DNA of 64,000 nt. Origin: a virus. This document shows, in pieces, positions 24,086 through 60,306 of the stretch. Numbering within the stretch: position 1 is the first letter of the stretch; each line of letters begins with the position of its first letter. The notes beneath the pieces are model-generated. The model searched no databases, was not told the DNA's origin, and worked only from the letters and a program-made list of their open reading frames with translations. The stretch is taken from the IMG/VR virus record IMGVR_UViG_3300021511_000003, positions 1 to 64,000 of that record, one strand, 5' to 3'. Position numbers and translations under genes: made by a program.

Positions 24086-25024
24086 TTATTCCTTTTTACA
24101 TTTTATAATAGATAATTTTTGAGTGTTGCATTCTGTTTCTTTTTTATGACCATATTTATAATGACACTTCTTACAAACAGCTATTGTATAATCAGGATCA
24201 AGTGCAAAAAATGGTTCTAATTTTTTTGGTTTTATATGATGAACTTCTGTTGCTTTTTTACCACAATATTGACAAGTATAATTATATCTTGTCATTACAA
24301 ATTGATTAAGAGTATGGAGTTCACTTGAACTATATGTGAATTTATCATCTTCTTCTGTTTTATATGGATCATTTCTTAGTCTATATAATGGACATTCATT
24401 TTTACATTCTTCACAACAATAAAAATAACTTCCACCGTTACCTTTTTCTAATTGTCTTATTCTTTCATAAAGTTGAATATAAGTTGGTGTAAACCAACCA
24501 CCTTGTTCTTTAGAATTCGAGCAATTGTGATTTTTACATCTAACTTGAATTTCTTTTACATCAATATTAATAGGGTTATAACGCATTTCTTCAATTTTAG
24601 AAAAAAACGGATATCTTTTATTAATAACTTTTATTGTCATCCTTCTATTTTCATATACACTTTGTTTATATTTTTTTCCTTTGGCATTCACATTTCCTTT
24701 TAAAGCTTTTTGTAGTTTTTCTTTTGTCTCTTTATTAATTATTTTTCCTTTGTGGGAATCACTAATTTTTTGTTTGTGTATTTCTGTTAATTTTTGATGA
24801 TGCCAATAATTTTTTATTCCTGAATGTGACTCTTTCATTTTTTTTAAAGTTTCTTCTGAGTATATATTAGTCTTTCCTTTATTCCATGGAATATACTTTT
24901 TCATCTTTACGCTTATTTTACGTTTTACTTCGGGGCAATGATTATAATTTTTACTACAACACCATTTTCCATTTTTAAATTGGTAGTTTACTTCTTGACC
25001 ACATCCATAGTCACACTTTGGCAT
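24086..25024 (-). CDS. HNH homing endonuclease with NUMOD3-type repeats
   Basis: The product is 312 residues. The first half holds DNA-binding NUMOD3-like repeats (EETLKKMKESHSGIKN, HKQKISDSHKGK, TKEKLQKALKGN). The C-terminus is an HNH domain: CQYCGKKATEVHHIKP, followed by CKKCHYKYGHK. An N-terminal CDYGCGQEV and CCSKNYNHCP may bind zinc. It lies just upstream of the terminase gene, which is probably its homing target. A GAACAAAAAATAAAGGAG leader precedes the ATG. Confidence 0.9.
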   Translation of the reverse strand: MPKCDYGCGQEVNYQFKNGKWCCSKNYNHCPEVKRKISVKMKKYIPWNKGKTNIYSEETLKKMKESHSGIKNYWHHQKLTEIHKQKISDSHKGKIINKETKEKLQKALKGNVNAKGKKYKQSVYENRRMTIKVINKRYPFFSKIEEMRYNPINIDVKEIQVRCKNHNCSNSKEQGGWFTPTYIQLYERIRQLEKGNGGSYFYCCEECKNECPLYRLRNDPYKTEEDDKFTYSSSELHTLNQFVMTRYNYTCQYCGKKATEVHHIKPKKLEPFFALDPDYTIAVCKKCHYKYGHKKETECNTQKLSIIKCKKE

Positions 25025-31963: not shown

Positions 31964-34900
31964 TCAGTTATGGTCCACTCCTATGACAGTAAGATAGGAA
32001 TTAAGTAATTTAACTGATTCTGGTGTTGTATCTATTGATTGTTTCTCATCTGTTAAAGTTGAATTGATGAAAGTACGGATGTAAGAATTTTTTAAATCAA
32101 TACAGTCAGATTTAGTAGTAAGAAACTCATGTAAATTACATGGTGCATCATGCCCAATTAAACATGCAGTTTCCATCTCACCACATCTTTGACCGCCTTT
32201 ATTTTTTCTACCACCCAATGGTTGAAGTGTTCTCCTTGCATACGCTCCAATACCTCTTGCAGCTAATTTTTCTTCTGCAATATGAACCATTCTAAAAAAG
32301 TAAATAAACCCAACTGCAACAGGATTTACTAAAGATGCTTTTGATAATGGATCATATATTGGAAATTTAAAATCGCTTTCAACGTATTCTATTGCTTTTT
32401 CAACATGTTGTAATTTACATGATTGAAAGGGTGCTTGTATGATTGTAAAATTTTTCAAAAATTCTGCATTGATTTCTTCTGGTAATTGTTCATTAAATTG
32501 GTTATAATACCAATTGTTATCTGTACAATCTATTACCTCAATAAATCCCAGTAAATATTTCTTTATTTCTTCTTGGTTAATCCCATCTTCAGACATTTTT
32601 ATAATATTTTGTTTGAGTTTATCAACAGCCATAGCCATATGTAATTCATACAACTGGCCAATATTCATTCTCGATATAATACCAAGTGGATTAATGCAAA
32701 TATCAAGATGTCTCCCATCTGGCAACTGTGGCATTTTTTCATGATCAACAATTCTGGAAATTACTCCTTTATTTCCATGTCTATTAGCCATTTTATCACC
32801 AACTTGGACTCTCCTGAAATGAACACCAAACATTTCAACATGTATCCCATTGATTCGTTCACGTTTCTTTTTATATTTCCCAACGAACGAAAATTTATCA
32901 AGACTTTTTTCTCTAATAACTTTTAAAGCATCTTCTTTCGACATAACATCCCGTAGAATTTTATGAAGAAATTTTTCTTTATCTTGTTGATCTGCAAGTT
33001 TATTTTCAACCCACTCTTTGTATTCAGGTACTTCTTCATTCCATGTATTTCCGTATATATTAACTTCGGAAATAATATAATTTTTTCGGGCTTCTAATGG
33101 TACAGTTTCAGAAAATACTGAATATTGTTCATCGGAATTTAATTTTTTCAAGATGGCATAAGGATCGCCAGATTTAATTGTTTCAAGTTCTTCAGGTAAT
33201 GGTTTATACTCACCATTTTGTAATGACAAAAGAACCTTATCTGGTGTTATTGTAAATGATAAATCTTTATAATGAACTGATGTTAAAACGTCTTCCTTTA
33301 CAAGTCTATCTGATATAACAATTCCATCCTCATAATTATTACCGTAATAAACCATAACACCAGTTAATAAATTTTTTCCAATATTAATATTACCATTATT
33401 ACAGAAATTACTTTCTGCAATAATATCCCCTGCTTTAAATTTATCTCCGCTTTTTACATATATATTCATAAAGTCCATATGTTCAACATAGATTTTTCTA
33501 TAACGGATATCAAATATATCGGTATCTTTATCATTATAAATAACAATTATATATTCTTTATCAATATGAACGACTTCCCCATCTTTCTTTGCAATTTTAA
33601 CGAATTGCGTATATGATGTGTATAACCCTTCTGACCCTGAACTGATTAGCGGAGTATCAAATTTTCTAAGCATAATTGACTGTCTCATTTGTGATGCAGC
33701 CATTTGTAGTCGAGTTTGATCATTATGCTTTAAAAATGGAGTCATTGATACCGGTATTGATATTGGATGTTTGTCACAAATTTCATCTGTGAATTTCATC
33801 TTTTCATTGATATGTACATTTGGAAGAATGTTTTGTAATACTCCACAGTTGTCTCTATCTGGTGTATCAACAGGACATAATCTACCGAACATACTTGGGC
33901 AAATATCTCTTAAATGCTTGGGAATGTTCTCCCGTTTGAAGCCTCCGGGTCCAAGAAGACTAATTCTCGATAACTTTGTTAATTCTTCAATTGGATTAAT
34001 TGAGAAATCAAATTGAACAATATCTGAAACGTTACACTCTGAAAGTATTTGAGTTGAATTAATATTAAATTTGGGTTGCCTTGCAGTTCGATTTGCAAAA
34101 CATAGATCGAATATGATTTTTGAAATTTTTGCAATGACAATATATTCAAAGCATCTGATTCTTTTATTCGTAAATAGTGTATCATCAACCGAACCAGTTT
34201 TTAATATTTCAGATATTTCTTCAAGGATTGTTGGGTATGTCATAAATTGTGCTGTAATTAAATCAACTTTTGGTATTAAATCAATTGCGTAAAGAATATC
34301 CTCACCTTTTGATTTTGCATTATACCTAGAATAAAGTCTTCCAAGTTCTAATATAAAATCGTCTATTGTGTAACCAATTGATTCATCAATGTATAATTTT
34401 AGATCTTGTCTTAATATATCAAAGAGGTTATCTCTTTCTTGTTCAATATCTATATCTAAATCATATTTTTCTGTGATACCTTCAATTCCATAATATGCAA
34501 GTAATATTAATGATAAAGGAACTTTTTTACCCATGAAGCTAATTTTAATACGTGGTCCTTCTTTGTCTTTAAATGCCATTATGGTTGCTACATTCGTACG
34601 TAGCTTTATATTTTCTCCCCTTGTTACTATGGGTATATCAAAAAGTTGTAATAAGGGAATTTTTCTTCTTCCATTGATATAAATATAATTTTTATCAACC
34701 AATTTTGGAATGAAAATACTTATATCAATTTCAGAAGATCCTTTTTGTAATTTAATAGCCAATGTTTCTTTGAGTGTTTTGGCCAATTCACCAGATGAAA
34801 ATCGTGAATCTTTTAAACTAATATCATTTATTTGAAATCCGATTTCTTCAACCGGTTTTACTATATTTTGTACAATAGGTAAAATATTTTCATAATCCAA

Positions 34901-34966
34901 TTGTCTTAAAGTGAATATATTATTTTCACTATTTTGTATTACAGCATTCGGGTTGATTATTTTCAA
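31964..34966 (-). CDS. RNA polymerase beta subunit, phage-encoded
   Basis: The product is 1000 residues, against about 1340 in E. coli RpoB. The conserved parts are in bacterial order: SRISLLGPGGFKRENIP and PSMFGRLCPVDTPDRDNCG (fork/rifampicin area), NYEDGIVISDRLV, VGDKMANRHGNKGVIS near residue 720, and GGQRCGEMETACLIGHDAP with HEFLTTKSD near the end. It is one unsplit chain, unlike the split subunits of phiKZ-like phages. The start is TTG, seven bases after AGGAGG, and overlaps the end of the DUF1040 gene. It pairs with the beta' gene at 35637. Confidence 0.93.
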   Translation of the reverse strand: MKIINPNAVIQNSENNIFTLRQLDYENILPIVQNIVKPVEEIGFQINDISLKDSRFSSGELAKTLKETLAIKLQKGSSEIDISIFIPKLVDKNYIYINGRRKIPLLQLFDIPIVTRGENIKLRTNVATIMAFKDKEGPRIKISFMGKKVPLSLILLAYYGIEGITEKYDLDIDIEQERDNLFDILRQDLKLYIDESIGYTIDDFILELGRLYSRYNAKSKGEDILYAIDLIPKVDLITAQFMTYPTILEEISEILKTGSVDDTLFTNKRIRCFEYIVIAKISKIIFDLCFANRTARQPKFNINSTQILSECNVSDIVQFDFSINPIEELTKLSRISLLGPGGFKRENIPKHLRDICPSMFGRLCPVDTPDRDNCGVLQNILPNVHINEKMKFTDEICDKHPISIPVSMTPFLKHNDQTRLQMAASQMRQSIMLRKFDTPLISSGSEGLYTSYTQFVKIAKKDGEVVHIDKEYIIVIYNDKDTDIFDIRYRKIYVEHMDFMNIYVKSGDKFKAGDIIAESNFCNNGNINIGKNLLTGVMVYYGNNYEDGIVISDRLVKEDVLTSVHYKDLSFTITPDKVLLSLQNGEYKPLPEELETIKSGDPYAILKKLNSDEQYSVFSETVPLEARKNYIISEVNIYGNTWNEEVPEYKEWVENKLADQQDKEKFLHKILRDVMSKEDALKVIREKSLDKFSFVGKYKKKRERINGIHVEMFGVHFRRVQVGDKMANRHGNKGVISRIVDHEKMPQLPDGRHLDICINPLGIISRMNIGQLYELHMAMAVDKLKQNIIKMSEDGINQEEIKKYLLGFIEVIDCTDNNWYYNQFNEQLPEEINAEFLKNFTIIQAPFQSCKLQHVEKAIEYVESDFKFPIYDPLSKASLVNPVAVGFIYFFRMVHIAEEKLAARGIGAYARRTLQPLGGRKNKGGQRCGEMETACLIGHDAPCNLHEFLTTKSDCIDLKNSYIRTFINSTLTDEKQSIDTTPESVKLLNSYLTVIGVDHN

Positions 34967-35636: not shown

Positions 35637-38348
35637 CTATATAATTTTTTCTCCCTTTAGTATTTTATCCATAACACCAGAATATCTTCCTTCATATAGA
35701 ATTCCTTGTAGAATTGCTCTTTTGGGATTTGAGAACGCCATTGCCAAAATCCAACTTTCTTGGTTGGGTACAGTTTGAATACTATAATACTTTGGAGATA
35801 CTTTTTCACGATTTTCTATCAATCTCCATTTTTTATTATCTCTCCACATTAACTGAGCAACTACAGATTCAAAATGAACATTATGAATATCTTTACCATA
35901 TGCATCAAATAATTCATCAACTATCATGGTATATGTTTTATTTTCGAATTTATGTAATAATTTAGAAACAGATGCAAGATCTCCAATAATATCCTTTTGC
36001 TTCATAGATGTATCATCATCCCCTATTTCTTCACCTTTGATGACTGCTGATCCAGAAGTATGAAATGTACGAAGAACTAATTGAGTTCCTCTCTCACCCA
36101 ATGTTTGAGCTGCTATAATTCCAATAAATCGACTATTAAGAATTTTATATAAATCACCATAACACTTTTTACATATTTTAGGTGATTTACATAATATTGG
36201 GCTTCGTATAAAAATAATTTTTCCGATTATATTTTTATAATTATCTTCTGTGATTTTATATAGGGTTTTATCTTCTTCATTAAGAGCCCATCTGTTAATT
36301 AACATTCGAGCTTTTCTATTATTTTTTACATCAACTTCCAATAAATCTGTTGTACCACAATCGTCAAGATCTTTATCAATCTGTAAATTGGCACATGTAA
36401 AAATAAGTTTTCTTGAAAGATAACCTGATGTTCCTGTATTTAATGCAACGTCCAACAAACCTTTTCTACAACCATATGTTGAATAGAAAAATTCTTTTTG
36501 TGTAAGCCCATCAACTAGAGAATTTTTGATTGGATGGGGTAAAATTTCTCCATCGAAGTTTGAAATAAACCCTCTGGATAAAATTAATTGTTTAACTTGT
36601 CCCCAACTTCCTCTTGCACCTGATTCTATCATATATGAATATTTGAATTTTTCTTTTAACTCATCAATCAAACTTGGATCCGAAAATGCAGTTAATTGAT
36701 TTCTTATACTGCTATGTGAAAAAATATCATGTCTTATTTTCTTTGCTCCTACAATAGGAAAATCTTTTAGTGACATCGTTGTACCATAAAGAGTTGCAAA
36801 TTTAAACCCGGTCTTTTTAATATTATCAAGAATTACAATTGTTTCTTCTTGTGGGTATTTATTTTTAATATCATTCAGGATTCGAAGTAAACCTTTTTCT
36901 GAAATCTTTTTATCGACAACTGGATAATCTTTTGGTAATTGTCTATTAAATTCAGCTCGACCGATTAATAATTTATGTTCTTTATATGTAATTATTTTTT
37001 TTGAAAATTCCTCAGATGTTAAATAATATATTCCCAGAATAATATCTTGACTCGGTGTTGTTGTTAAGTACTCATTAGATGGACTACTTAGATTCGATGT
37101 TATTACAATCTTTTCTTTAATTTCATTTTTGGCGTCATCTGAAATGGGTATATATACAGCCATTTGATCCCCATCAAAATCTGCATTAAATGGAGGACAT
37201 GCGAGCGGATGTATTTTAATAACTGAATCTAATGTAATCTTAATTTTAAAACCTAACATTCCAAGTTTGTGAAGCGAAGGTTGTCTATTTAATATACAGT
37301 ATTCATTTTTTGTTACGTCTTTACAAATTTTTAATAAGACAGGTGTTTTATTTTCAATACATTCGTTTACATAATCAATTGATTTATTGAGTAATTTGAA
37401 TTTACCAAGTTGGATGATTCTTTTTGCTATAGGAAGTTTAAATATTTCAAGTACCATTATATATGGTAACTTACACTCATCCAATGAAAGAGTTGGATCA
37501 GGGGAAATAACTGCACGACCGGAGAAGTCAATTCTTTTTCCAAGAATATTCCCTCGTATCAACCCCTCTTTTTTAGCCATCTTTTCAAGAATTCTTGTAT
37601 AAAGTTCGCTAACGTCTTTTTGTAATTGTTTAAAATATGTATAATAGAGAGCCTTATCACGTTGAATATCAATAATTGTGTCTCTCATAATTTCTTTTTT
37701 AGTTAGTATTTGAACATAATAACGATTGATTTTATCCATTAACTGTTTTGTTTCGCCTGAACTTTTTGATGTTGGTCGTAACTCAGGTGGTAATACAATA
37801 ATCTGATTTATCAATAAATTACTTAGATTATCTTTAATAATTTGCCATTCTGGTGGGTTATCTGGGTTTTCAGCAACAGCTCTGACCAACTCTTCAATTG
37901 CTTCCACTCGTTCCCACTTTTCTGCACCTACTGGTATTTGATCTTCACTTATTGTAACTACATATTCATCTAAAGCTGAGTCTAAATAAAGAATACTTTT
38001 ATCATTTTTCATAAGATCATCGATTGCTTTTTTTAAGCCTTTACCGCCCAAATTAACAATTAGATCATAAAATAATGGATTAACCACAGATATCGGTATT
38101 ACAATTTTTGCGAATGTTTTTCTTCTGGAATCACTATTTATAATAGGAACACCACAAATATCACACACACTACCGGATTTCGATACACCATGATAAATGC
38201 CACATTGGCATGTATAATTTCTCACTGGCCCAAATATTTGTTCAGAGAATAAGCCTTCTGGGTTAAACTTTTTCTTTCCGAATGTTTTTAGAGACGTTAC
38301 TTCGTCTAAGTTTTCACAGAAATCACTATAATTTAAAATCTTAGGCAT
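35637..38348 (-). CDS. RNA polymerase beta' subunit, phage-encoded
   Basis: The product is 903 residues, against about 1400 in E. coli RpoC. The N-terminus has GLFSEQIFGPVRNYTCQCG with a CxC...CxxC zinc site. The catalytic NADFDGD motif lies at about residue 388, and KRIDFSGRAVISPDPTL and RQPSLHKLGMLG precede it as in bacteria. The trigger-loop region GERGTQLVLRTFHTSGSA lies near 750. It is a single unsplit chain. It is transcribed upstream of the beta gene; alpha, omega and sigma homologues are not seen in the window. Confidence 0.95.
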   Translation of the reverse strand: MPKILNYSDFCENLDEVTSLKTFGKKKFNPEGLFSEQIFGPVRNYTCQCGIYHGVSKSGSVCDICGVPIINSDSRRKTFAKIVIPISVVNPLFYDLIVNLGGKGLKKAIDDLMKNDKSILYLDSALDEYVVTISEDQIPVGAEKWERVEAIEELVRAVAENPDNPPEWQIIKDNLSNLLINQIIVLPPELRPTSKSSGETKQLMDKINRYYVQILTKKEIMRDTIIDIQRDKALYYTYFKQLQKDVSELYTRILEKMAKKEGLIRGNILGKRIDFSGRAVISPDPTLSLDECKLPYIMVLEIFKLPIAKRIIQLGKFKLLNKSIDYVNECIENKTPVLLKICKDVTKNEYCILNRQPSLHKLGMLGFKIKITLDSVIKIHPLACPPFNADFDGDQMAVYIPISDDAKNEIKEKIVITSNLSSPSNEYLTTTPSQDIILGIYYLTSEEFSKKIITYKEHKLLIGRAEFNRQLPKDYPVVDKKISEKGLLRILNDIKNKYPQEETIVILDNIKKTGFKFATLYGTTMSLKDFPIVGAKKIRHDIFSHSSIRNQLTAFSDPSLIDELKEKFKYSYMIESGARGSWGQVKQLILSRGFISNFDGEILPHPIKNSLVDGLTQKEFFYSTYGCRKGLLDVALNTGTSGYLSRKLIFTCANLQIDKDLDDCGTTDLLEVDVKNNRKARMLINRWALNEEDKTLYKITEDNYKNIIGKIIFIRSPILCKSPKICKKCYGDLYKILNSRFIGIIAAQTLGERGTQLVLRTFHTSGSAVIKGEEIGDDDTSMKQKDIIGDLASVSKLLHKFENKTYTMIVDELFDAYGKDIHNVHFESVVAQLMWRDNKKWRLIENREKVSPKYYSIQTVPNQESWILAMAFSNPKRAILQGILYEGRYSGVMDKILKGEKII

Positions 38349-38575: not shown

Positions 38576-38780
38576 TTTTTTTAGATTCCTTTTTATCGAT
38601 CTTGATTTTTATCTTATCAACTCCTTTGTCAACTATTTCATCTGCTGTATCAGCAGTACGTTCAACCATCAGTTTAATTAATGATCTTATTGATTTTTTA
38701 CCTGTTGTTGCAATATCATCAATAATAATTTTAATCTGTTTTTTCACTTCTTTATTAGTTAATTTTTTTTTATTTTCCAT
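38562..38780 (-). CDS. Small lysine-rich helical protein
   Basis: The product is 72 residues, very rich in Lys, Asp and Ile, predicted to be a charged helix or coiled coil (ADTADEIVDKGVDKIKIKID). It overlaps the end of the E2-like candidate upstream and the start of the next small gene. No family was recognised. Confidence 0.55.
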   Translation of the reverse strand: MENKKKLTNKEVKKQIKIIIDDIATTGKKSIRSLIKLMVERTADTADEIVDKGVDKIKIKIDKKESKKNEKD

Positions 38781-39127
38781 GCTCCTAACACCTCTTGTTT
38801 TTTATATTGTATTTCATCCCAAGGTGTAAAGTAACAGTCATCTAAATTAAAGCATAATAACATATTAGTAATCATATTTTTAGACTTGTTCGTTAAATTA
38901 TATTTTCGTAAACTATGTGGTATACAAAACTCTCCACTTTTTGGTATTGCATTTGGGTGTGGATTATCTAATATAACCATATCAATTTTACCATTAACAG
39001 TTTTAACAATAAAACCATCAACTTCAAATTTATTTGCTAGTTTCGTAATTGTATATATTTCATTTTTATATATTAATTTCCTTGGTTTGATAAATTCGGT
39101 TATTTCATGATTTTTTATTATCATCAT
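38759..39127 (-). CDS. Possible E2-like conjugating protein
   Basis: The product is 122 residues. After a beta-rich first half, NPHPNAIPKSGEFCIP (residues 55-70) matches the E2 arrangement in which an HPN motif is followed about eleven residues later by the catalytic cysteine (H57-P-N, C68). Further on, TPWDEI recalls the W that follows in E2 folds. The gene directly follows the E1-like gene, overlapping it by four bases. The match is short and by eye; a structure prediction would be needed to be sure. Confidence 0.45.
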   Translation of the reverse strand: MMIIKNHEITEFIKPRKLIYKNEIYTITKLANKFEVDGFIVKTVNGKIDMVILDNPHPNAIPKSGEFCIPHSLRKYNLTNKSKNMITNMLLCFNLDDCYFTPWDEIQYKKQEVLGAWKIKKN

Positions 39128-39984
39128 GCAGCTCCGGTTTCAGGAATTAACTCGACATAAACATTACTGTTTTCATTGTATAGTGATATTACAAAATTAT
39201 TAAAATCTGTCTGACAAGATACTAAAGACATAAATAATGTAATTAAATCTTTACCATTTTTCAAAGAGTTCATTGGAATCACTTTTTCAGAAACAGGAAA
39301 CATTCTACTTCCAAGAAATACAGTAACATCTTTATCTTTGTTTATATCCATTATTGGGACAATTTTATCTGGCAAATTTAAAAATTTTTCATTCCCCAGA
39401 ATGTTTTCATATACTATATCATAATTTTTATTATCAATATGCTTGACATAATCGAGTTCATATTTTTGAATAGATTTACTTTTTATAAGAGTTGTAATTA
39501 TATCACAATGAATCAACATAGAAATAATTGAAGCAGCATACCTCAAATCATTTCTTGATAATTCTAAAATATATTTTCCAGCCTGTAAGCAAGAGTATGT
39601 AACATTTTTTCTAAAGTCACCCATTAAATATCTTGATGATATGTAAAATCTTGCATCAATCTCTTTTTGTCGATCATAGGTATAATCTCTACAATCAATT
39701 ACTAAATCCTCTTTTATAAGTTTTGTTTTACCTTCCTTATATTTACTTTGAAATGCACATATTTCAAGATCAGGATTTTGATCATGTAGAATATCTTTTA
39801 GAGCTTCGACTTTTGGGGCACCTATATCGACTTGTCGGTAAATCGAATTCTTCAAATTCTTTTTCTCAACTATATCGTGGTCTAATATAACTATCTTCTC
39901 AATTCCTTCCAAATTAGCTATAGCTTCTGCTACAAATCCACCGAGTGTTCCTAACCCAATTATTACTATATTTTTATACACCAC
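39124..39984 (-). CDS. ThiF/E1-like adenylyltransferase, second copy
   Basis: The product is 286 residues. The nucleotide-binding IGLGTLGG lies at residues 9-16, VILDHDIVEKKNL holds the two aspartates (D35, D37) and N43, followed by YRQ (R50, Q51) and DIGAPK (K58). This is the ThiF/MoeB/E1 core used to adenylate a ubiquitin-like C-terminus. No zinc CxxC pairs are seen and no catalytic cysteine stands out. It differs from the PRTRC-like ThiF at 41162, so the cluster carries two E1-type genes. Confidence 0.8.
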   Translation of the reverse strand: MVYKNIVIIGLGTLGGFVAEAIANLEGIEKIVILDHDIVEKKNLKNSIYRQVDIGAPKVEALKDILHDQNPDLEICAFQSKYKEGKTKLIKEDLVIDCRDYTYDRQKEIDARFYISSRYLMGDFRKNVTYSCLQAGKYILELSRNDLRYAASIISMLIHCDIITTLIKSKSIQKYELDYVKHIDNKNYDIVYENILGNEKFLNLPDKIVPIMDINKDKDVTVFLGSRMFPVSEKVIPMNSLKNGKDLITLFMSLVSCQTDFNNFVISLYNENSNVYVELIPETGAA

Positions 39985-40012
39985 GGGTCATAGTCTCCTT
40001 TACTGATATTGT

Positions 40013-40028
40013 GGGGGGATACAATATC
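40013..40028. other. GC-rich hairpin between cluster genes
   Basis: GGGGGATA and TATCCCCC pair across a short loop (CAA), and the stem extends by neighbouring bases. It lies between the 188-residue gene ending at 40052 and the E1-like gene starting at 39984. No T run follows on either strand, so it is more likely an RNA processing or stability element. Confidence 0.5.
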
Positions 40029-40051
40029 CCCCTCATTATAAAAACTGATAT

Positions 40052-40618
40052 TTATAGTTGAGCTTCCTCCATCGGTTCAGTGAAAATATCTAGTTCTTTA
40101 AGCATTTGTTGTTCTTCAGTACCAACCGGAACTGGTCGATAATGTGATTTATACTTAAAGAAATTATTTGCCAATTTAATGGGATAGCTTAAGGGGATAT
40201 TATATGAATATTTCTTTATTTTACCACTTTTCAAAATATTAACTGGTAATGTCGGATCTATTCGTGATAATTCTCCAGCAATTTCACTCCTGAAATGAAG
40301 GTCACCTTTTGCATCTTTTACTTTAAAAGATCGGTTAATAACTTTATCATCTCGGGATGAACCGTTGATTTTCATTTTATTTTCTTTTCTGATCAATGCT
40401 TTCATAGCGCGACCAAATGCTATATTTTTTCCTTTTACTTTTGAAAATGTATCGCGTAGAGAGCATATTGCAACTCCTCTTGATTCAATACGTTTTAACT
40501 TTGAATTGATAAAAACACAAGCTGTGAAAACATTATTCGCAATAGCACTTCCTGCAACATAAAATGCTACTTTATCAACTCTATTGTTGTTCAATATCTT
40601 TTGTGTTTCAGGATTCAT
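40052..40618 (-). CDS. Conserved hypothetical protein in the conjugation cluster
   Basis: The product is 188 residues. The N-terminal half (KVAFYVAGSAIANNVFTACVF, then RGVAICSLRDTFSKVKGKNI and AFGRAMKAL) looks like a family I have seen in phage and plasmid genomes, without known function. It lies between the ubiquitin-like gene and the second E1-like gene, all in one direction. GC-rich hairpins flank it on both sides. A role as target or adaptor of the conjugation system is speculation. Confidence 0.6.
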   Translation of the reverse strand: MNPETQKILNNNRVDKVAFYVAGSAIANNVFTACVFINSKLKRIESRGVAICSLRDTFSKVKGKNIAFGRAMKALIRKENKMKINGSSRDDKVINRSFKVKDAKGDLHFRSEIAGELSRIDPTLPVNILKSGKIKKYSYNIPLSYPIKLANNFFKYKSHYRPVPVGTEEQQMLKELDIFTEPMEEAQL

Positions 40619-40642
40619 ATCATATTCCTTTGTTATTGGTTA

Positions 40643-40660
40643 GGGGGCCCGAAGACCCCC
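40643..40660 (-). other. UUCG-tetraloop hairpin after the ubiquitin-like gene
   Basis: On the minus strand GGGGGTC TTCG GGCCCCC forms a seven-pair stem (one G-U pair) closed by a UUCG tetraloop, a very stable RNA hairpin. It lies 15 bases after the ubiquitin-like stop. Without a T run it would slow 3' exonucleases or reduce read-through, and could raise the level of the ubiquitin-like mRNA. Confidence 0.75.
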
Positions 40661-40674
40661 ATTTCTAATGATAT

Positions 40675-41145
40675 TTAACCTTTCTTCCCTGCTGGTTTCA
40701 GGAATTCCAGATTGTCGCCGGAGTTTAGAACATACTCCGCATCGACTTCTTTGCCATTAACCAGTCCTGTAGAAAGACGATCAACATTCAGAACTTCACG
40801 AAGGAAGTCACCAACTTCTTTTACGCTCTTACCGGCAACTGGGAAATTACCAGAAGATGCTCCACAAGATACATGAATGGTTGTGGTGGCACGGGAACCG
40901 AAAGGGGCATCGGGTTTAGTAATTGTACTTTGACCGGTAAACTGAATACCGGTAAGTTTTTCCATTGCCTTTTCGGGAGCTTTGCTAATTGTTGAACCAC
41001 CGCCATAACGAGCGAGAATTGCATTGATAACGGTATTTTTATTTTTTTTGGAAACCCCCGGGATATTCAATTCATCAATACACATTCTTTTAAGGGCTTT
41101 GGATGTTTTGGCTTCAAGTTCTTCTCTTTTGAAAATTCTTCCCAT
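40675..41145 (-). CDS. Ubiquitin-like protein with N-terminal SAP-like domain
   Basis: The product is 156 residues. The C-terminal 70 residues (about 87-156) have the beta-grasp pattern of MoaD/ThiS and PRTRC protein C: TTIHVSCGASSGNFPV, a helix KEVGDFLREVL, LVNGKEV, LNSGDNLEFLKPAGKKG with glycine at the end. The N-terminal part (about 16-46, LKRMCIDELNIPGVSKKNK and TVINAIL) resembles a SAP or HeH helical domain that binds DNA. The gene is about 50 percent G+C by spot count against 20-27 percent nearby. JAB and ThiF genes lie directly upstream. Confidence 0.75.
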   Translation of the reverse strand: MGRIFKREELEAKTSKALKRMCIDELNIPGVSKKNKNTVINAILARYGGGSTISKAPEKAMEKLTGIQFTGQSTITKPDAPFGSRATTTIHVSCGASSGNFPVAGKSVKEVGDFLREVLNVDRLSTGLVNGKEVDAEYVLNSGDNLEFLKPAGKKG

Positions 41146-41161
41146 TGTAAAATCTCCTTTG

Positions 41162-41848
41162 TTAATGTTTCACGATTCGAATTTTTGCATCTGCAGTCAT
41201 TTTTGTTAAATCAAAATAAACTTCAGATCGTTCATACTCGTCTTTGACTACAACGTTGTAGAAAGACCAACACATCAAAGTTGCAACCCCCAGATTTGCA
41301 AAGTATAGTTGGGGGTCAGAATGAGCAAGCTCATCACAACTCATTTCTTCTGGTAATTTATCATCTGGCTCTGCTATTTCTGGATGATATGCACATAGAT
41401 CAGGAGTTAAGTCTTTTCCATCTCTTCTAATATAAATCTGCACATTACCATCTGTATAGTCATTGCCACCAGAAATTAAAATAACATTTTGTAAATTTTT
41501 ACAGTAATTGGATACAATCATTCTGGTTTTGTGATTATCAACACATAGAAATACAATATAGTCTTCTTTAATAACTTCTTCTACAGTTTTTTCATTTACA
41601 AAAGCTTCGAATGCATTAAACTCTAGTCCATCAAATTTCATTTCAAGTTCGGTAGCTTTTATATCAGCTTTATTTCCGATACGAAAAAACTCTTGTCGTT
41701 CATAATTTTTTTGTTCATACTCGTCTCCATCCACCAATAGTAATTCTGCATCAAGATCTTTTGAATAGTTTAAAAATCTACATAATCTCTCAACTAATAT
41801 AGAACCAACTCCACCAAGTCCAATAACTGATATAAACATGTCAGACAT
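41162..41848 (-). CDS. PRTRC-like ThiF/E1 enzyme
   Basis: The product is 228 residues. GLGGVG (10-15) binds nucleotide, VDGDEYEQKNYERQEF carries D40, D42, N48 and R51, LCVDNHKTR (102-109) holds a further aspartate, and EMSCDELAHSDPQ places C171 where E1-type enzymes have the catalytic cysteine. This resembles the PRTRC cassette ThiF. It would adenylate the ubiquitin-like protein encoded next. The start overlaps the stop of the JAB gene. Confidence 0.88.
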   Translation of the reverse strand: MSDMFISVIGLGGVGSILVERLCRFLNYSKDLDAELLLVDGDEYEQKNYERQEFFRIGNKADIKATELEMKFDGLEFNAFEAFVNEKTVEEVIKEDYIVFLCVDNHKTRMIVSNYCKNLQNVILISGGNDYTDGNVQIYIRRDGKDLTPDLCAYHPEIAEPDDKLPEEMSCDELAHSDPQLYFANLGVATLMCWSFYNVVVKDEYERSEVYFDLTKMTADAKIRIVKH

Positions 41849-43386
41849 TATAAAACCTCTCTTTTAAATACTTTTTTAAACATAGCCATGAGACCATTTG
41901 GTTGTTCTGATATTGGTATTATGGTTGATCCTGGTTCCGGTATTCTTTGAATAGGTTCATCCTCCTTTTTAGCAGCTTGAGTTATCTCATCTACTTCTCG
42001 TGTTAAAAGCACTCCTTTATTTGTATATGGTTGTTCAGGTTTTTCTATACTATTAATTGGAGTGTAACAGAAAGGACAAGTTTCATCACTATTGTTTAAG
42101 TGAAAGCCATTACCACATTCTTTACATTTAATATATGAAGATTCTTCAATTTCTTTTGTAGAATCTTTTTTAAACATGTGGTCATATTCATCGCCTGGTA
42201 TATATTGATCTGACAGAACTTCCTCTTTATCTAATAGAATAAGATGTTCATTTGTATTACATGTGGAACATTGGAGTTCGAATCCTTCTTCCTCTTTAAC
42301 AATCTCGCCACAATTTTTACAAAAATACATCTCTTCAAAATCATCTTCCTCAATCTCAGAAGTAAGTTTGCAAAGTCTATGAGTGCATGTGGCACATGGT
42401 ACAAAGTCACCATCCTGAGTATGTGGAGGGAACTTTAAAGGTGTTGGTATCACTGGTTTAATACCTGGCTTGGAAGCACGTGAATTAATATTTTTTCCAT
42501 TTTGCTTCCAAATAGAACGATCATAATTAAAACCCCAACCATCATTATATGCATGAGCAGCATATCCATACCATCCAGCGTATCCATTACGATAACTTGG
42601 GAAGGTGTAAACACCCTTTTCTACCATACTCATCCAGTTTTTATTGAAAATACGATCCTCATCTGAGCATACTATATCATATCTACGATCAAATTTTTTA
42701 CGCTCGAATGGATATTTGGGCTTGACATCTACATCTTCAATAAGTTTTCCATTTTTCCATTTATAAACTGTTTTAACTGATTTATTATCAATGGAATTAG
42801 TTTCAGACATACACACTATATTATCAATATATTTTTCAGGTTCTATCATTTGTCGAAACCCGTTTGATACAATTGATGAAGAAAGGCTGGGATATTTATC
42901 ACCTAAATCTCCAAATGTCAGATGAAGTCCATCAAAATGTTCTTCATCACTATCATCAACTCCTGAATGAAACGCTGACATGTTTCCATGACTATGAATA
43001 GTTCCAATCATTGTATATCCATCAATAGTCAAACCTTTATCATAATCACAGCTAGCACCTGCGACTTTTTGATGTGGCGGAACAATTTTATGTTCTCCCG
43101 TTTGTTCATTATAGAACAATAGAACGATTGCTTCTGATCTGTTATATGTATCATATACTTCTCGAAAAAAGCTTATAACTTTTGCAATATATTTTCCAGG
43201 AATCTTTGTAATATGCATTCGTGCACTTGATGCCACACTTTCAAGAATTGAGATATTTTTAACCGGTGCAATACTTTCCATTACACCAAGTTTCTTTTTA
43301 AGAAATACTCCCTCCTTACCAATAATATAATAAATATCATCTTTAGGCATTTCATTTTGCCCATCATTCAGGACTACTTTAAACAT
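41848..43386 (-). CDS. JAB/JAMM metalloprotease with zinc ribbons
   Basis: The product is 512 residues. The N-terminal domain has the complete JAMM motif: E85, H131-S-H133, then S141 and D144 with the HxHx7Sx2D spacing, within TIHSHGNMSAFHSGVDDSDE. The first 60 residues look like a PRTRC protein A type N-terminus. The C-terminal part holds five CxxC or CxxCx pairs (CATC, CKNC, CSTC, CKEC, CPFC) forming probably two or three zinc ribbons. Such enzymes remove ubiquitin-like tags or process precursors. Its start overlaps the end of the 859-residue gene. Confidence 0.92.
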   Translation of the reverse strand: MFKVVLNDGQNEMPKDDIYYIIGKEGVFLKKKLGVMESIAPVKNISILESVASSARMHITKIPGKYIAKVISFFREVYDTYNRSEAIVLLFYNEQTGEHKIVPPHQKVAGASCDYDKGLTIDGYTMIGTIHSHGNMSAFHSGVDDSDEEHFDGLHLTFGDLGDKYPSLSSSIVSNGFRQMIEPEKYIDNIVCMSETNSIDNKSVKTVYKWKNGKLIEDVDVKPKYPFERKKFDRRYDIVCSDEDRIFNKNWMSMVEKGVYTFPSYRNGYAGWYGYAAHAYNDGWGFNYDRSIWKQNGKNINSRASKPGIKPVIPTPLKFPPHTQDGDFVPCATCTHRLCKLTSEIEEDDFEEMYFCKNCGEIVKEEEGFELQCSTCNTNEHLILLDKEEVLSDQYIPGDEYDHMFKKDSTKEIEESSYIKCKECGNGFHLNNSDETCPFCYTPINSIEKPEQPYTNKGVLLTREVDEITQAAKKEDEPIQRIPEPGSTIIPISEQPNGLMAMFKKVFKREVL

Positions 43387-45958
43387 TAATCATACTCCTT
43401 TCATCATTTATGAATTCAAATATTGAAGAATTACAGGTATAAGTATGTCCGTGGCAATTTGTCCAACCTCTTTTAGTACCAATTTCATTCTGTATTCTTT
43501 GTGAAATTCTTGGATTTAATATATAATCGAATTTGTAGTTTACAGCAGTATATTTATCCAGTAAAGTATACCTTGGAATTCGTGTATAATATTTCAAGTC
43601 TAATATATTTAACTTATGATTACCGTTTATCTTAAACACAATGCAACCGGCATCGGTTTGATATTCATTCTCACCAACAATAATATCACCAGGTTGAAAT
43701 TTAATTTTTGCAATATCAATGGGGGCATGTGAAATAGTTGCCCATTTTTTATTCGTCATTGAAATTTTCTTGAACTTATTGATTACATCACTGTACCATA
43801 AAGTACAACAATTTGAACATAGTACTAATGGATCAGACCCACCTGTATCTGTTATAAAACCAATGATAATATGTGTATCTTTTTTAAGGAAATGTAAAAT
43901 ACCAGTCTCTTGAGCTTGAATTTTCATCCCTGCTGTAAGGTTGCCATATACATTTGTAATATGCCTGATTTTTCCTGTAAATATTGATCCGGTTGGTCCA
44001 TCAACATACTTTATTTGGTGTAGTATACCTTCCTTATCAGCTAATATAAAATGTATATCTCCTCTCTCTTCATTAAATTTAAATCCTTGAATTATTTTTA
44101 TCGAAAGCATATTTATTGGATTTTCCCAATCAGAAGTAACAACTTTGTCTCCTATAGCAAAGTCAATGTTCATATCATAACTTTCAACTCTGAATTTATC
44201 ATCGTTCAAAATATATTTTTTTATTTCCAATGGTGATGGAATTGCGGCAGATTGATATCTATTATCAATTGCGACACCATTTGGAGTACCAAATGTTGTA
44301 CCTTCCATGGGATCATGTGTATTTCGTCTCGACATTATTAATGTACGACCGACTCTAACAAGTGGCGGTAATGGTTTGATAGTTTCTGTATCAAATATCA
44401 ATGAATTGTGTATTGTTGAATCTATGTTTATTCTAAAATAGTCATTATTTAAGTTATCATCTATACTTCGAAATTGTAGTTTTAATCTATCTGTATGATC
44501 AACATTAAAATCATCATATTTTACCAAATAACCACTGAGTAGGGGGGTTTCATTTGTTGCACCATTTATAAATAAATAAGTTTTATCCTTTGTTAGTTTA
44601 AGACCATTATATACTGGGTTTGATAAATTATAAACTTTCGCTTCTAAATGTTCAAGAATATAGAAACCATCACCAAAACATGCTTCGTGATATCCTTCTT
44701 GATTAAGACGAATATAACCAACCTTCTTATATACAGTATTACCGATACCATTTTTCATTTGAACAATGTCATCCTTTTTAACAATATCACCATTTTTCAA
44801 CGTACCTTCTTTTTCGTATCGAAGTTCTATAGTTTTTTCTTTCAGAAATTTTGAAAATGCTTTTGTGTTTTTATAAATAATCAAACGACCATCTTCTCTT
44901 TCAACTCTGAAATATTTGATACCTCCACTATTTTCAAAACTAATAAGCGAATTGATATAACACATACGTTTATTATTTTTAATAAGGAATGGATCTCCTA
45001 CATGAATATAAAATTTGTTATCCAGAAATACACCCTCTGCAACATCATAGTATAACTTATATTTCTTTTTGGCTCGCTTTGTTGGTTTGGCAACTTTACC
45101 TGTATCCATTTTTGTTGAAAACATTTGAGTGAGGGATTTATATTCAACTTGTTTTGTGGTTTTATTATTATGTCGTTTTATTTCATCAATGGCTTGACCA
45201 AAATTCATTGGAATTTTAATCCAGTCAACATTATAAATAAACATAGGATTTAATTTAGATAAACCCTGCCATTCCATATATGTACTAACACCAGCAACTT
45301 TTTCATATGCATGATAGTTATACATGTAGTCATTATTAAACTCAGCACCCCAGAATACATTAATTGCTTTTTCAACTGCTGCATTCAATGACTCAGATAT
45401 TCCACTTGATTTAGTACCAAAACAAATATACTGACTTTCTGAAATATTTGGTAATGGTATTTTAAGAAGATAATCTGATAATCCTGTTAATCTTGCAACT
45501 CTCAAAAATGCCTGACCACATCGTATATCATAAAAATCATCGATATATAAAATAAAGATAACATATGGGAATGCCAAATTAAATGACGGTACTTCATCAA
45601 TGTTGGTTGTAAAATTTTCACTATAATCATATTTTTCAAGTCTACCACTACGTTTTAGTATATTAGTTTCACGTTGAAAATTTAAATCGATTTTAATTGT
45701 TCTAAACGCTGGTGGTTCTTCAATAGCAATGATATACCCACCTTGTACTCTTTCCATAAATCTACAATTTGGTGGTAAAACATTCATTGATTGATCGTTT
45801 ATAGTAAGTGCAATACGTTTAAGATAATCTATAGTAAGAAGGGATTTCTTATGAATAACTGGTAATGAATCATTATTTAATATTGAATCCTTGTATTCAG
45901 ATCTATATAAATTCGTATACTTTGAGTTTATTCTTATTTCATTTTTTAAATTCATCAT
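43379..45958 (-). CDS. Large cluster protein with a PRTRC-B/E2-like region
   Basis: The product is 859 residues. Around residues 130-210, IPLPNISESQYICFG is followed by INVFWGAEFNND, which looks like the PRTRC protein B or bacterial E2-like pattern with the conserved cysteine C179 after a PN motif. An upstream GGYIIAIEEPPAFRTI region is conserved in style with phage JAB-linked proteins. The remaining 600 residues contain many beta strands and a CSNCC site near 740, unassigned. It heads the cluster. E2-like activity is an inference. Confidence 0.55.
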   Translation of the reverse strand: MMNLKNEIRINSKYTNLYRSEYKDSILNNDSLPVIHKKSLLTIDYLKRIALTINDQSMNVLPPNCRFMERVQGGYIIAIEEPPAFRTIKIDLNFQRETNILKRSGRLEKYDYSENFTTNIDEVPSFNLAFPYVIFILYIDDFYDIRCGQAFLRVARLTGLSDYLLKIPLPNISESQYICFGTKSSGISESLNAAVEKAINVFWGAEFNNDYMYNYHAYEKVAGVSTYMEWQGLSKLNPMFIYNVDWIKIPMNFGQAIDEIKRHNNKTTKQVEYKSLTQMFSTKMDTGKVAKPTKRAKKKYKLYYDVAEGVFLDNKFYIHVGDPFLIKNNKRMCYINSLISFENSGGIKYFRVEREDGRLIIYKNTKAFSKFLKEKTIELRYEKEGTLKNGDIVKKDDIVQMKNGIGNTVYKKVGYIRLNQEGYHEACFGDGFYILEHLEAKVYNLSNPVYNGLKLTKDKTYLFINGATNETPLLSGYLVKYDDFNVDHTDRLKLQFRSIDDNLNNDYFRINIDSTIHNSLIFDTETIKPLPPLVRVGRTLIMSRRNTHDPMEGTTFGTPNGVAIDNRYQSAAIPSPLEIKKYILNDDKFRVESYDMNIDFAIGDKVVTSDWENPINMLSIKIIQGFKFNEERGDIHFILADKEGILHQIKYVDGPTGSIFTGKIRHITNVYGNLTAGMKIQAQETGILHFLKKDTHIIIGFITDTGGSDPLVLCSNCCTLWYSDVINKFKKISMTNKKWATISHAPIDIAKIKFQPGDIIVGENEYQTDAGCIVFKINGNHKLNILDLKYYTRIPRYTLLDKYTAVNYKFDYILNPRISQRIQNEIGTKRGWTNCHGHTYTCNSSIFEFINDERSMINV

Positions 45959-45963
45959 AACAT

Positions 45964-46344
45964 TTATTCACCTCGTAGAAATTTATATCGTTTGGCATAT
46001 TCAGTTAATATCATTTCAGGTCTATTATCATTGATTGACCATACTCTTTGCCTCTTTATTGAGAGAGTTTTTGATTCTCTAAAAATATATTCTTTTCTAG
46101 ATGTTACAAATAATACAGCTAACCAAACATCTTCACTTTCACGTTCTAATGAAAGAAAAGCAATTTCATTTGTTATTCTTCCAGGAACTTCCAGTGTAAG
46201 AAATAGATTTGGTCCCTTTGGAATTATTTCAGTATGTATAATATTTTCTTCTTCTTCTTCAGAAATCATATCACATAATTGTCTTATTTCATCAATATTA
46301 TTATCACCTTTGATTTCTGAAAGTAATTTATTTAAAATTCCCAT
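45964..46344 (-). CDS. Hypothetical protein
   Basis: The product is 126 residues with an acidic helical start (SEEEEENII) and a beta-rich remainder. The ribosome binding site is AAAGGAG before the ATG. It lies directly upstream of the 859-residue cluster gene and may belong to its operon. No family was recognised. Confidence 0.55.
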   Translation of the reverse strand: MGILNKLLSEIKGDNNIDEIRQLCDMISEEEEENIIHTEIIPKGPNLFLTLEVPGRITNEIAFLSLERESEDVWLAVLFVTSRKEYIFRESKTLSIKRQRVWSINDNRPEMILTEYAKRYKFLRGE

Positions 46345-46366: not shown

Positions 46367-46717
46367 TTACTTGTAAGGTGTTCTTGGCGGTTTGGATTTT
46401 TTTGTGTAGTATCTCATTGTTTTAGTATCCATCCATTCAACTCCATCAAACGGAACAGAACGCCACGCTTTTTTATCTAGATCATAAACATGCATTATTT
46501 TATTTTTTTGAATCAAACTAAGTATATTTTGAATATTAACACCTTTTGGGTGATCCTTCTTTGGAATTTTTGTAAAATCCAATGTACATCTCATAATACG
46601 ATTAGTTTTATCTTTTTTTTCAAACTTGATAACAACTTCTTTTTCATCATAAACTTTTTTCCAAAATGTGATCGCACTCATAATTACATTGCTATCTAAA
46701 GGTTTTTGATCTACCAT
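46367..46717 (-). CDS. SH3-fold (DUF2693/WYL-like) small protein
   Basis: The product is 116 residues. MRCTLDFTKIPKKDHPKGVN, then NKIMHVYDLDKKAWRSVPFD and VEWMD form the pattern of the small SH3 beta-barrel family found in T4-type phages. The function is unknown; nucleic acid or protein binding is usual for the fold. It lies four bases downstream of the second radical SAM gene. Confidence 0.65.
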   Translation of the reverse strand: MVDQKPLDSNVIMSAITFWKKVYDEKEVVIKFEKKDKTNRIMRCTLDFTKIPKKDHPKGVNIQNILSLIQKNKIMHVYDLDKKAWRSVPFDGVEWMDTKTMRYYTKKSKPPRTPYK

Positions 46718-46720
46718 AAT

Positions 46721-47767
46721 TTATTCTCCCCGTTTATCAGAGTGTACTAACGTATTTACTCCTTCTTCTGTTTCATCAAGATATTGACTCATCATCAAGC
46801 ATGAATGATTACAGGATTTACAATAATATTGCTTGTCTGACACTATTGCATTGAATACATACGCAGATATAAGATGTGGATCTGTTTTATCAAACAACTG
46901 TGTTACATTCAATTCTGGACTCGAAACACCCTTGATTCTCAAACATAATCTAATTGTTCCATCTGCATCAATTGAAATATTATGCAAACCTTGTTCCAAT
47001 TTGCAATCATAATTTGTTGGTAATGTATTAAACATTTTTGGGATTAAAATGTCTTTCATATGAACATATAAAGATAGATTGTTTACAATATTAACCAACT
47101 CCTCTGCTAATCTGAATGTTGGTTGAACTAATGTTTTTATATCCCAAACATTTGAAAAGTCGTAAAATGGACTTTTTGCAATATCAACAAATGTAATATC
47201 GCTATATATGTTATTCATACTCAACTGTTCTACGAGTTTATACAATAGATGTTGATTATGATTCATAACTGTTATTTCAGCCACAACATCCTTAACTTTA
47301 CCTGCTTCCTGAATCTCCTTCAATCTTTTGAGACCTTCAATGCTTTTCATTACTCGATCTTCATCTGCACCGATTTCATTAAAGATTGGATCCACTGAAC
47401 TCGTAAAACCTTCTATATGATCAACCTTATCAAATAACTTTTTGATTAATGGTTGAATTGTTGGGGTGTTGTTCGTAATAATGGTATAGTAGATTTCATT
47501 GTCATTACAATAATTTATAATATCAGGTAGATCAGGTCTTAATAATGGTTCACCACCATAAAATATATGAAACACATCTGGATTGTGAACCTTAAATGCT
47601 GCAAGGGTTTTAATAACAACTTCTGTTGGCATTTCATTTTTGATATAATGTTTCATATCAGGATATAGATATGGTTTTCCATTATAGTTTCTCACAATAG
47701 CACAATATTCACATTCAAGATTACATTTTCTTGTGAGAAGCCAATTTACAATTCTTACTTGACTCAT
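46721..47767 (-). CDS. Radical SAM protein with SPASM-like C-terminus
   Basis: The product is 348 residues. CNLECEYC at residues 14-21 is the CX3CX2C cluster motif, FYGGEPLLRPD at about 70 is the conserved GGEP motif, and the end has NYDCKLEQG, GTIRLCLRIKG and CKSCNHSCLM, a SPASM-like set of cysteines that binds an auxiliary 4Fe-4S cluster. SPASM enzymes usually modify peptides or proteins. It directly follows the second TNSSS-motif gene, two bases apart, repeating the arrangement at 5516-7016 with the order reversed. Confidence 0.9.
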   Translation of the reverse strand: MSQVRIVNWLLTRKCNLECEYCAIVRNYNGKPYLYPDMKHYIKNEMPTEVVIKTLAAFKVHNPDVFHIFYGGEPLLRPDLPDIINYCNDNEIYYTIITNNTPTIQPLIKKLFDKVDHIEGFTSSVDPIFNEIGADEDRVMKSIEGLKRLKEIQEAGKVKDVVAEITVMNHNQHLLYKLVEQLSMNNIYSDITFVDIAKSPFYDFSNVWDIKTLVQPTFRLAEELVNIVNNLSLYVHMKDILIPKMFNTLPTNYDCKLEQGLHNISIDADGTIRLCLRIKGVSSPELNVTQLFDKTDPHLISAYVFNAIVSDKQYYCKSCNHSCLMMSQYLDETEEGVNTLVHSDKRGE

Positions 47768-58888: not shown

Positions 58889-59050
58889 TTAATCCTCCGT
58901 TATATATAATGGAAATATTAATACTATACCATTAAACATTCCCATAATTGAAAATAATAACATCCCATCGCTTCCCTTATTAATAGCAGAAATGAATTTG
59001 CTTAATATATAAGTATAATAAAACATTGATAATATTAAATGATGTTTCAT
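58889..59050 (-). CDS. 53-residue membrane protein
   Basis: The ATG overlaps the stop of the VWA gene (ATGA), so it is translationally coupled. The product has two hydrophobic segments (MFYYTYILSKFISAI and LLFSIMGMFNGIVLIFPLYI) and an acidic end. It lies before the terminator. It may be a small inner-membrane protein linked to the MoxR/VWA pair; no family was recognised. Confidence 0.6.
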   Translation of the reverse strand: MKHHLILSMFYYTYILSKFISAINKGSDGMLLFSIMGMFNGIVLIFPLYITED

Positions 59051-60306
59051 ATTTGTACCACATACCCTGTTCGATTAACATTTTTTGCTGTACCATTTTT
59101 GTTAATCACCCAAATAATTTTCTTTGGTAGTCGTTTTCTTGAAATAGAGTTTATATCTTCAACATAGCCATCCGTAAAAACTAAACAAACATCAACATTC
59201 AATTGTTTTAATCTTTCAAGACCAGGTAGTAATTTTGTTCCACCACGACCTTTTACATTAAATTGAATATCTCTAACCCTTTTTACTCTATATTCTTTTT
59301 CAATAATAGTATCAACTTCGAGTACAGTTGTATAACAATAACGATCTTTTTCAATTATACTCTTGATGCCTGATAAACCCTCCTTAATTTCATCTATAGA
59401 CATACTAGCGGAAACATCAAGAAGAACACCAATATCGAATGTTGTATCTCTTATTTTGCCTGGAAAAGGCGATATTTGTGGGATACATTTATCATCCTTT
59501 AATGTAAAAACATATGTACGTTTACGGTTTATCTTTGTAGGACTTCTTCGAAATTTACTGAATCTCGACCCCCGTACTAACTTTCTGATAATTTGATAGT
59601 ATGGTGCTTTTGGTGGGGCAAGAGCTCCTTCAATTAAAGTCGAAATATGACCTGGTATTGTTCCACGATGTTTATTAAAACTTTTAACTGACTCTTTAAT
59701 AATACCTTGAACATGATGATCTATTTTTCTTGATAATGAACTTAAATCAGCTACTCCATCAACTCCGTTATTCCATTGTTCATGCCCATTAAATGCTTTA
59801 TTCGATGGGAATTTAATTGTCTTTGCATTCTTTAATAATTTATAAAAATAATATTCGGTTAATTTACCTTCTTGTAACTTAAAGTTTTCTGGAAGACATG
59901 GTTTCCAAGATTCACCATTTACTATAAGAGGAGTCCTAATATTTGCTTGAACATTAACACAACAGTCTGCTGCAATATTCCATATATTAAACTTATCTTT
60001 CTTTTTTTCCTCAGATGTTTCATTTGCTAAAATTCTGATATATCGTGATACATGTTTATTTAAAACATGCATACCTTCATGTTCAATTATTCTCAATATT
60101 TCCTTATCAGTAGTTCCAGCTAACAACTCTGGTTCATAATAAAGAGATAAGGTCCCATCTTTCTCAGAAGCTATTCCCATTACCGATTGAAGTTTTGCAA
60201 ATGTAATAGGTTTTCTTCGAATCCTTGAGAACAAGTAACCCCAATAATTATATTTCAATACAAATCTTGCAATTAATTCTTTGAGTCGTTCTCCTTGATT
60301 TTTCAT
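59047..60306 (-). CDS. Metallopeptidase-like/VWA protein (DUF2201 type)
   Basis: The product is 419 residues. The N-terminal domain has IIEHEGMHVLNKHVSR, an HExxH-type site. The C-terminal domain is VWA-like with the MIDAS motif LLDVSASMS at about 296 and LVFTDGYVED later. MoxR ATPases and VWA proteins usually work as pairs, in metal insertion or protein remodelling; the MoxR partner lies directly upstream. The target is unknown. Confidence 0.85.
   Translation of the reverse strand: MKNQGERLKELIARFVLKYNYWGYLFSRIRRKPITFAKLQSVMGIASEKDGTLSLYYEPELLAGTTDKEILRIIEHEGMHVLNKHVSRYIRILANETSEEKKKDKFNIWNIAADCCVNVQANIRTPLIVNGESWKPCLPENFKLQEGKLTEYYFYKLLKNAKTIKFPSNKAFNGHEQWNNGVDGVADLSSLSRKIDHHVQGIIKESVKSFNKHRGTIPGHISTLIEGALAPPKAPYYQIIRKLVRGSRFSKFRRSPTKINRKRTYVFTLKDDKCIPQISPFPGKIRDTTFDIGVLLDVSASMSIDEIKEGLSGIKSIIEKDRYCYTTVLEVDTIIEKEYRVKRVRDIQFNVKGRGGTKLLPGLERLKQLNVDVCLVFTDGYVEDINSISRKRLPKKIIWVINKNGTAKNVNRTGYVVQI

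Follow-up and report, generated by a model that had tools for sequence, protein, structure and literature searches.

A putative ubiquitin-like conjugation pathway linked to the RNA polymerase genes of a giant phage

Prokaryotic gene cassettes of the PRTRC kind and of Iyer class 6d appear, on the basis of sequence, to be the closest described relatives of the gene cluster considered here. The cluster is a compact minus-strand operon at positions 38759-45958 of a window of 64,000 nucleotides (positions 1 to 64,000 of the 223,015-base IMG/VR virus record IMGVR_UViG_3300021511_000003), lies directly upstream of phage rpoC and probably encodes, in its core, a ubiquitin-like conjugation pathway. PRTRC cassettes, like the window, hold a JAMM protease, a ThiF protein, a family-D E2 and a small ubiquitin-like protein (Ubl) that ends in G-x-K-G, all within one operon. 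Class 6d likewise includes a Ubl with a C-terminal Gly, a JAMM protein, an E1-like protein and a Cys-bearing E2-like protein without the classical active-site His (PMC1779556), and is described as having a JAB-N domain in which an Arg and a Trp are strictly conserved and an E2 with a Cys and a conserved downstream His (PMC1779556). The six genes compared with these systems are, in the order of transcription, E2D, JAMM, E1a, Ubl, E1b and E2x.

The best NCBIfam models for the E1a and the JAMM of the window are TIGR03736 (PRTRC_ThiF) and TIGR03735 (PRTRC_A), but the scores of 42.2 and 38.5 bits lie far below the respective cut-offs of 144.75 and 101.8. The Ubl of the plasmid locus L015 matches Prok_Ub (PF14454), whereas the scanned Ubls of the phage family match ThiS/TGS or nothing, and five plasmid/KLEB27-type ThiF rows split from the phage E1a family with an SH-aLRT support of 100 in a quick tree with long branches. 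The phage cluster also adds a fused SAP/Rho_N domain, the E1b and E2x genes and a long C-terminal region of E2D. The scores, the Ubl type and the E1 tree rule out strict membership of PRTRC, so that the kinship with these cassettes suggested by an earlier, sequence-only reading of the window holds only in a wider sense. Class 6d differs as well: no invariant Arg or Trp is found in residues 1-100 of the phage JAMM, the Cys of the phage E2D is kept but the downstream His is not conserved, D210 being found instead, and no alpha-helical partner was identified in the phage cluster. The gp194-gp196 genes of the 217-kb Bacillus phage vB_BauM_KLEB27-3 (OM634661) resemble the cluster in being neighbours that encode a PRTRC_A-like JAMM, a ThiF and a Prok-E2_D protein; however, their E1 groups with the plasmid PRTRC-like ThiF proteins, and no adjoining Ubl, E1b or E2x was found.

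Type II CBASS also combines E1, E2 and JAMM functions in Cap2 and Cap3, with Cap2 being the nearest solved fold of E1b; however, Cap2 is a single E1-E2 protein that tags a nucleotidyltransferase, whereas the phage cluster consists of separate genes with its own Ubl and no CD-NTase. The E1/E2/Ubl/protease logic of the Bil and Bub systems is shared, and E1a is weakly matched by BilD and BubCD, but no Bil- or Bub-specific architecture was detected in the phage cluster. A phage-encoded Ubl and JAMM are also known from the lambdoid TAPI/TAPK tail assembly pair, which is described without an E1 or E2 (PMC1779556), whereas the giant-phage cluster adjoins RNA polymerase genes. No report of a phage E1/E2/Ubl system was found in a search of open-access papers, and one may still exist. 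Features new here in comparison with PRTRC and class 6d are the SAP-Ubl, the E1b and E2x pair and the linkage to the phage RNA polymerase.

Conservation of the six-gene cluster

Relatives of the cluster were gathered by scans with E1a, Ubl and E2x, which provided dozens of contigs, some of them near copies; loci are denoted below by L numbers, and the aligned rows used for residue conservation include several overlapping loci of one contig. Among the best 80 of the 97 viral contigs matched in the E1a scan, JAMM stands immediately before E1a in 79 and Ubl immediately after it in 79. All six genes are present in 49 of the 51 untruncated rpoC-linked loci; where the six occur, rpoC follows directly downstream. 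The JAMM-E1a-Ubl core is present in 17 untruncated loci that lack rpoC, and 13 of these also contain an E2D-like open reading frame (ORF), which is often weak and several kilobases off. Removal of close copies left 55 E1a sequences of the six-gene type. The sequence-only reading had named a lack of conserved co-occurrence in related phages as grounds for its refutation, and this did not turn out to be the case: the gene order is kept in dozens of contigs, well beyond chance; synteny and residue invariance together rule out chance motif matches.

The cluster genes are under purifying selection. Ratios of non-synonymous to synonymous substitution (dN/dS, NG86) between relatives are mostly 0.04-0.25, with higher values (0.32-0.43) in E2D, E2x and JAMM for the pair formed by the window and L003, and rule out pseudogenes.

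The core is also found on bacterial chromosomal contigs, beside thiolase and Hsp70 in Methylomirabilota and beside DNA polymerase I and YebC in Falkowbacteria, and the E2D/JAMM/E1/Ubl set stands among ordinary bacterial genes at L080:3974-9000 and L079:4779-8957. The viral form thus belongs to a broader prokaryotic family, of which it is one branch. A Walker A ATPase gene lies directly upstream of the core in the Methylomirabilota loci L080, L084 and L086; the L080 copy is classed as AAA+ in Pfam. L077 and L083, contigs binned as Thermoplasmatales and Woesearchaeota, also hold clusters of the rpoC-linked type; the two may be viral although placed in archaeal bins, and offer a weak hint of the host.

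The E2D, JAMM, E1a and Ubl proteins

E2D (43379..45958, 859 amino acids) carries a Prok-E2_D-like domain at about residues 56-217, with the candidate catalytic C179 in PLPNISESQYICFG, followed by a conserved C-terminal region of about 600 residues without fold assignment. The window protein alone gives a weak Prok-E2_D match (E 0.012, below the 25-bit cut-off); PF14460 (Prok-E2_D) matches 10 of 11 E2D homologs, with a best value of 5.3e-5, and hhalign comparison of the E2D N-terminal profile with an annotated family-D E2 of a Cytobacillus plasmid aligned the active sites (Prob 96.3, E 1.5e-9). C179 is found in all 128 rows and N171 in 126 of them.

The JAMM/JAB metalloprotease (41848..43386), which overlaps E2D by 8 bases, matches Prok-JAB (7.5e-5) and has a complete JAMM/MPN+ signature composed of E85 and H131-S-H133-x7-S141-x2-D144. 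None of these five residues is replaced in more than one of the 148-149 rows, and H131 and H133 are found in 148 of 148. Zinc ribbons are present in the C-terminal part, with CxxC pairs at 331/334, 356/359 with 373/376, and 421/424 with 437/440.

The adjoining E1a gene (41162..41848) overlaps JAMM by 1 base and encodes a ThiF-type activating enzyme with a GLGGVG motif (PF00899, 61.9 bits, 6.7e-17). D40, D42, N48 and the candidate thioester C171 are present in 154 of 154 aligned rows and R51 in 153, so that E1a has every feature of a thioester-Cys E1/ThiF protein, namely GxGxxG, DxD, N, the Arg finger and the catalytic Cys.

The Ubl (40675..41145) is composed of an N-terminal SAP/Rho_N domain (about residues 9-45) and a predicted beta-grasp domain (about residues 85-156), and ends in KPAGKKG. 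Rho_N was matched in 10, TGS in 11 and ThiS in 10 of 11 homologs, the best TGS/ThiS value being 6e-4. A PDB profile search (E<=1) gave nine matches, none significant; among them are three natural proteins of Ubl fold (PF1061, SAMP2 and MoaD), together with a ubiquitin variant obtained by design. The K-G end is kept in 96 of 98 homologous Ubl ORFs, with L088 and L138 as the exceptions and L117 read by eye. Exactly at the Gly of G-x-K-G end 59 of the 98; 18 add a single Cys and most others add one to many residues, such that more than a third of the Ubls extend beyond the Gly. In L133 a tandem SAP-Ubl-SAP-Ubl precursor is encoded in one frame, with a junction of KPAGRKG followed by ADETATS, resembling a polyubiquitin precursor. 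The residues beyond the Gly and the tandem precursor make it likely that the Ubl is processed by the adjacent JAMM.

Two SAP/Rho_N copies followed by one Ubl domain were observed in the Ubl ORFs of L127, L136 and L120. A Ubl-E1b fusion in L138 was not used, the end of the Ubl being broken there, probably by a frameshift.

The HxHx7Sx2D protease motif, the E1 with GLGGVG and C171, the Ubl with a C-terminal glycine and the leftward, packed and partly overlapping arrangement of the genes, all of which had been noted from the letters of the window, are thus borne out. The SAP/Rho_N domain of the Ubl, the CxxC ribbons of JAMM, the E2D region of about 600 residues and, in E1b, the missing Arg finger and the ETGAA end are features beyond that reading.

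E1b, E2x and the proposed pathway

E1b (39124..39984) is a second ThiF-like protein (PF00899, 69.6 bits, 2.9e-19), as had been proposed earlier. Its AlphaFold2 model (predicted local distance difference test score, pLDDT, 83.9) consists of a ThiF domain followed by a C-terminal bb-a-bb domain with a conserved ETG[AG]A end, and the best Foldseek folds are CBASS Cap2, ThiF, MoeB and UBA5 (E about 1e-8). GxGxxG, D35, D37 and K58 are kept, and the terminal Ala is found in 110 of 125 rows. No Cys is conserved in the alignment after C98, and the consensus has Asn where the Arg finger would stand, so that E1b falls short of the thioester-Cys E1/ThiF feature set. The intact adenylation site expected of both E1-like proteins is therefore found in E1a and is not clear in E1b, which keeps the nucleotide-binding residues and lacks the Arg finger. 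A beta-grasp nature of the C-terminal domain is hinted at only by the predicted topology and a MoaD-like GG-A end in L138, and could not be taken as proven from sequence (hhalign to Ubl 0.1%; no Pfam or PDB match).

E2x (38759..39127, 122 amino acids), the gene of which overlaps the E1b stop by 4 bases, has an HPNx8C motif in HPNAIPKSGEFC, with H57 and C68 in 109 of 109 rows and N59 in 108-109 of 109; the N-to-Cys spacing is 9, against the canonical 8. The AlphaFold2 model (pLDDT 93) predicts a beta-meander, then HPNx8C, then a helix. A PDB profile search gave two matches only, both ubiquitin E2s aligned on HPNx8C (E 0.41 and 1.1), and the top 8 Foldseek matches are UBC entries, but at E 0.3-1.6 and a TM of about 0.3; no match was found in the viral structure library and no convincing one in Pfam. 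Together these matches are no more than suggestive of an E2 fold. Of the two E2-like proteins with PN...C patterns recognised earlier, E2D is thus well supported by PF14460 and hhalign, while for E2x the fold is suggestive only.

Homology, the invariance of the active sites, synteny and purifying selection give strong support to the presence of a full E1/E2/Ubl/JAMM set, as claimed at the outset. Together with the Ubl tails and the tandem precursor, the folds of E1b and the same-strand gene overlaps, these observations make it probable that the core is a virus-encoded ubiquitin-like conjugation pathway, a judgement that covers the core pathway, with the second branch and the target graded separately below. 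In this pathway, the chemistry of which is deduced from homology, JAMM would trim the residues beyond the Ubl Gly where present and would later take the tag off; E1a would adenylate the terminal Gly with ATP, after which C171 would receive the Ubl, to be handed to C179 of E2D and then joined to the target by an isopeptide bond. The long C-terminal region of E2D probably binds the substrate, and tagging would bring the SAP/Rho_N nucleic-acid-binding module onto the target. The RNA polymerase linkage and the SAP domain prompt the guess, a doubtful one, that the substrates are phage transcription or nucleoprotein components; host targets are possible.

E1b and E2x may constitute a second branch that is coupled to the first. 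Since E1b has no conserved catalytic Cys beyond its DCRD motif, it may activate a C-terminus by adenylation, perhaps that of its own -GAA end, for direct transfer to C68 of E2x. A C-terminal Gly or Ala is likewise found in the cGAS proteins that Cap2 conjugates (PMC10097602), in keeping with the proposed pathway. In its full form the proposal has two branches: SAP-Ubl would be attached to components of phage transcription or nucleoprotein, and an E1 would activate a C-terminal domain of its own and hand it on to a minimal E2 of the HPN type. Such a complete two-branch system is considered rather unlikely.

Several points weigh against a conjugation pathway. The E2D family alignment has no invariant active-site His, D210 being kept instead; the Ubl terminates in KG rather than GG; the usual Arg finger is missing from E1b, the C-terminal domain of which has no Pfam or PDB sequence match; E2x has no Foldseek match at E<=1e-3; and no E3 was identified, with no genome-wide E3 search made. 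The missing Arg finger of E1b, the non-significant fold match of E2x and the occurrence of the core alone in other contigs would also fit an arrangement in which only E2D, JAMM, E1a and Ubl conjugate and the other two serve elsewhere, E1b for example as an inactive scaffold of E1-like type and E2x as a structural protein. This is an appreciable if tentative possibility, compatible with the first branch of the pathway proposed above; E1b and E2x, however, occur together in 49 of the 51 loci described above, their genes overlap in the window, GxGxxG/D/K and HPN...C are kept, and both genes are under purifying selection.

Two further explanations dispense with protein tagging by the virus. The cluster could be a module for sulfur-carrier or small-molecule or peptide biosynthesis, in which E1a makes a Ubl thiocarboxylate or carrier in the style of ThiS/ThiF or MoaD/MoeB, JAMM trims, and the radical SAM protein helps to build a cofactor, modified nucleoside or peptide. 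The ThiS/TGS-like Ubl, the matches of the E1a profile to MoeB and ThiF in the PDB and the co-conservation of the radical SAM gene in rpoC-linked loci agree with it, but sulfur transfer would have no need of two proteins in which an E2-type Cys motif is invariant, one of them a clear Prok-E2_D relative, the cluster has no rhodanese or biosynthetic enzyme, and other contigs hold the core without radical SAM, which makes this explanation improbable. Alternatively, the E1/E2-like and JAMM proteins might remove host tags or titrate factors of Bil, CBASS or Bub as a counter-defence device without tagging of their own, as the Cap2-like fold of E1b and the use of E1/E2/JAB proteins in bacterial defence (PMC10097602) might suggest. 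A conserved Ubl of its own with processing features, full active sites, stable synteny with the phage RNA polymerase, the core on bacterial chromosomes and PADLOC matches limited to generic E1 domains render such a device highly improbable.

If the conjugation pathway works as proposed, prokaryotic viruses would run reversible protein tagging of their own, with E1, E2, Ubl and protease each encoded by a gene of its own in a eukaryote-like manner and with a tag that itself carries a nucleic-acid-binding domain. Being small, conserved and open to reconstitution in vitro, the module would provide a direct test of prokaryotic ubiquitin-like conjugation, including whether PRTRC-type cassettes conjugate protein, and the relatives on bacterial chromosomes make the direction of host-virus transfer a testable question.

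Neighbouring genes and other features of the record

The order of transcription on the minus strand is radical SAM, p9, p8, E2D, JAMM, E1a, Ubl, p3, E1b, E2x, two small ORFs and rpoC. The radical SAM protein (46721..47767; PF04055, 3e-14) is co-conserved upstream by synteny, as is p9 (46367..46717), a WYL_2/Sm-like small protein (PF10902 at 1.7e-5, just under the cut-off; phrog_1086 at 3e-13), and p8 (45964..46344) is usually kept immediately 5' of E2D. The protein p3 (40052..40618), without assigned function, separates Ubl from E1b in a minority of the relatives (L003, L027, L058, L059, L066-L068 and some others) and was not found in the remaining loci. Between the Ubl and p3 genes, at 40643-40660 on the minus strand, lies an inverted repeat (gggggtcttcgggccccc) that is rich in GC and has a TTCG loop but no T run; it could stabilise or separate transcripts. 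The cluster-linked radical SAM protein has a weak resemblance to PapB and viperin models, and a second radical SAM gene is present at 6018-7016.

The rpoC gene (35637..38348, minus strand) encodes an RNA polymerase beta' subunit with beta' matches in phages. An RNA polymerase beta subunit is encoded at 31964-34966, another part of the record contains a second beta'-like ORF (L069:7821-10853), and the phage seems to carry several RNA polymerase subunits. No terminase (PF03237) was found in the 223,015-base record, and the virus call therefore relies on IMG/VR, a tail-sheath match and the phage-type gene content. A VWA/metallopeptidase-like DUF2201 protein at 59047-60306 is followed by a gene at 60306-61550 with a weak AAA match, an arrangement like that of MoxR/VWA pairs, and a NUMOD3/HNH homing-endonuclease-like gene is present at 24086-25024.

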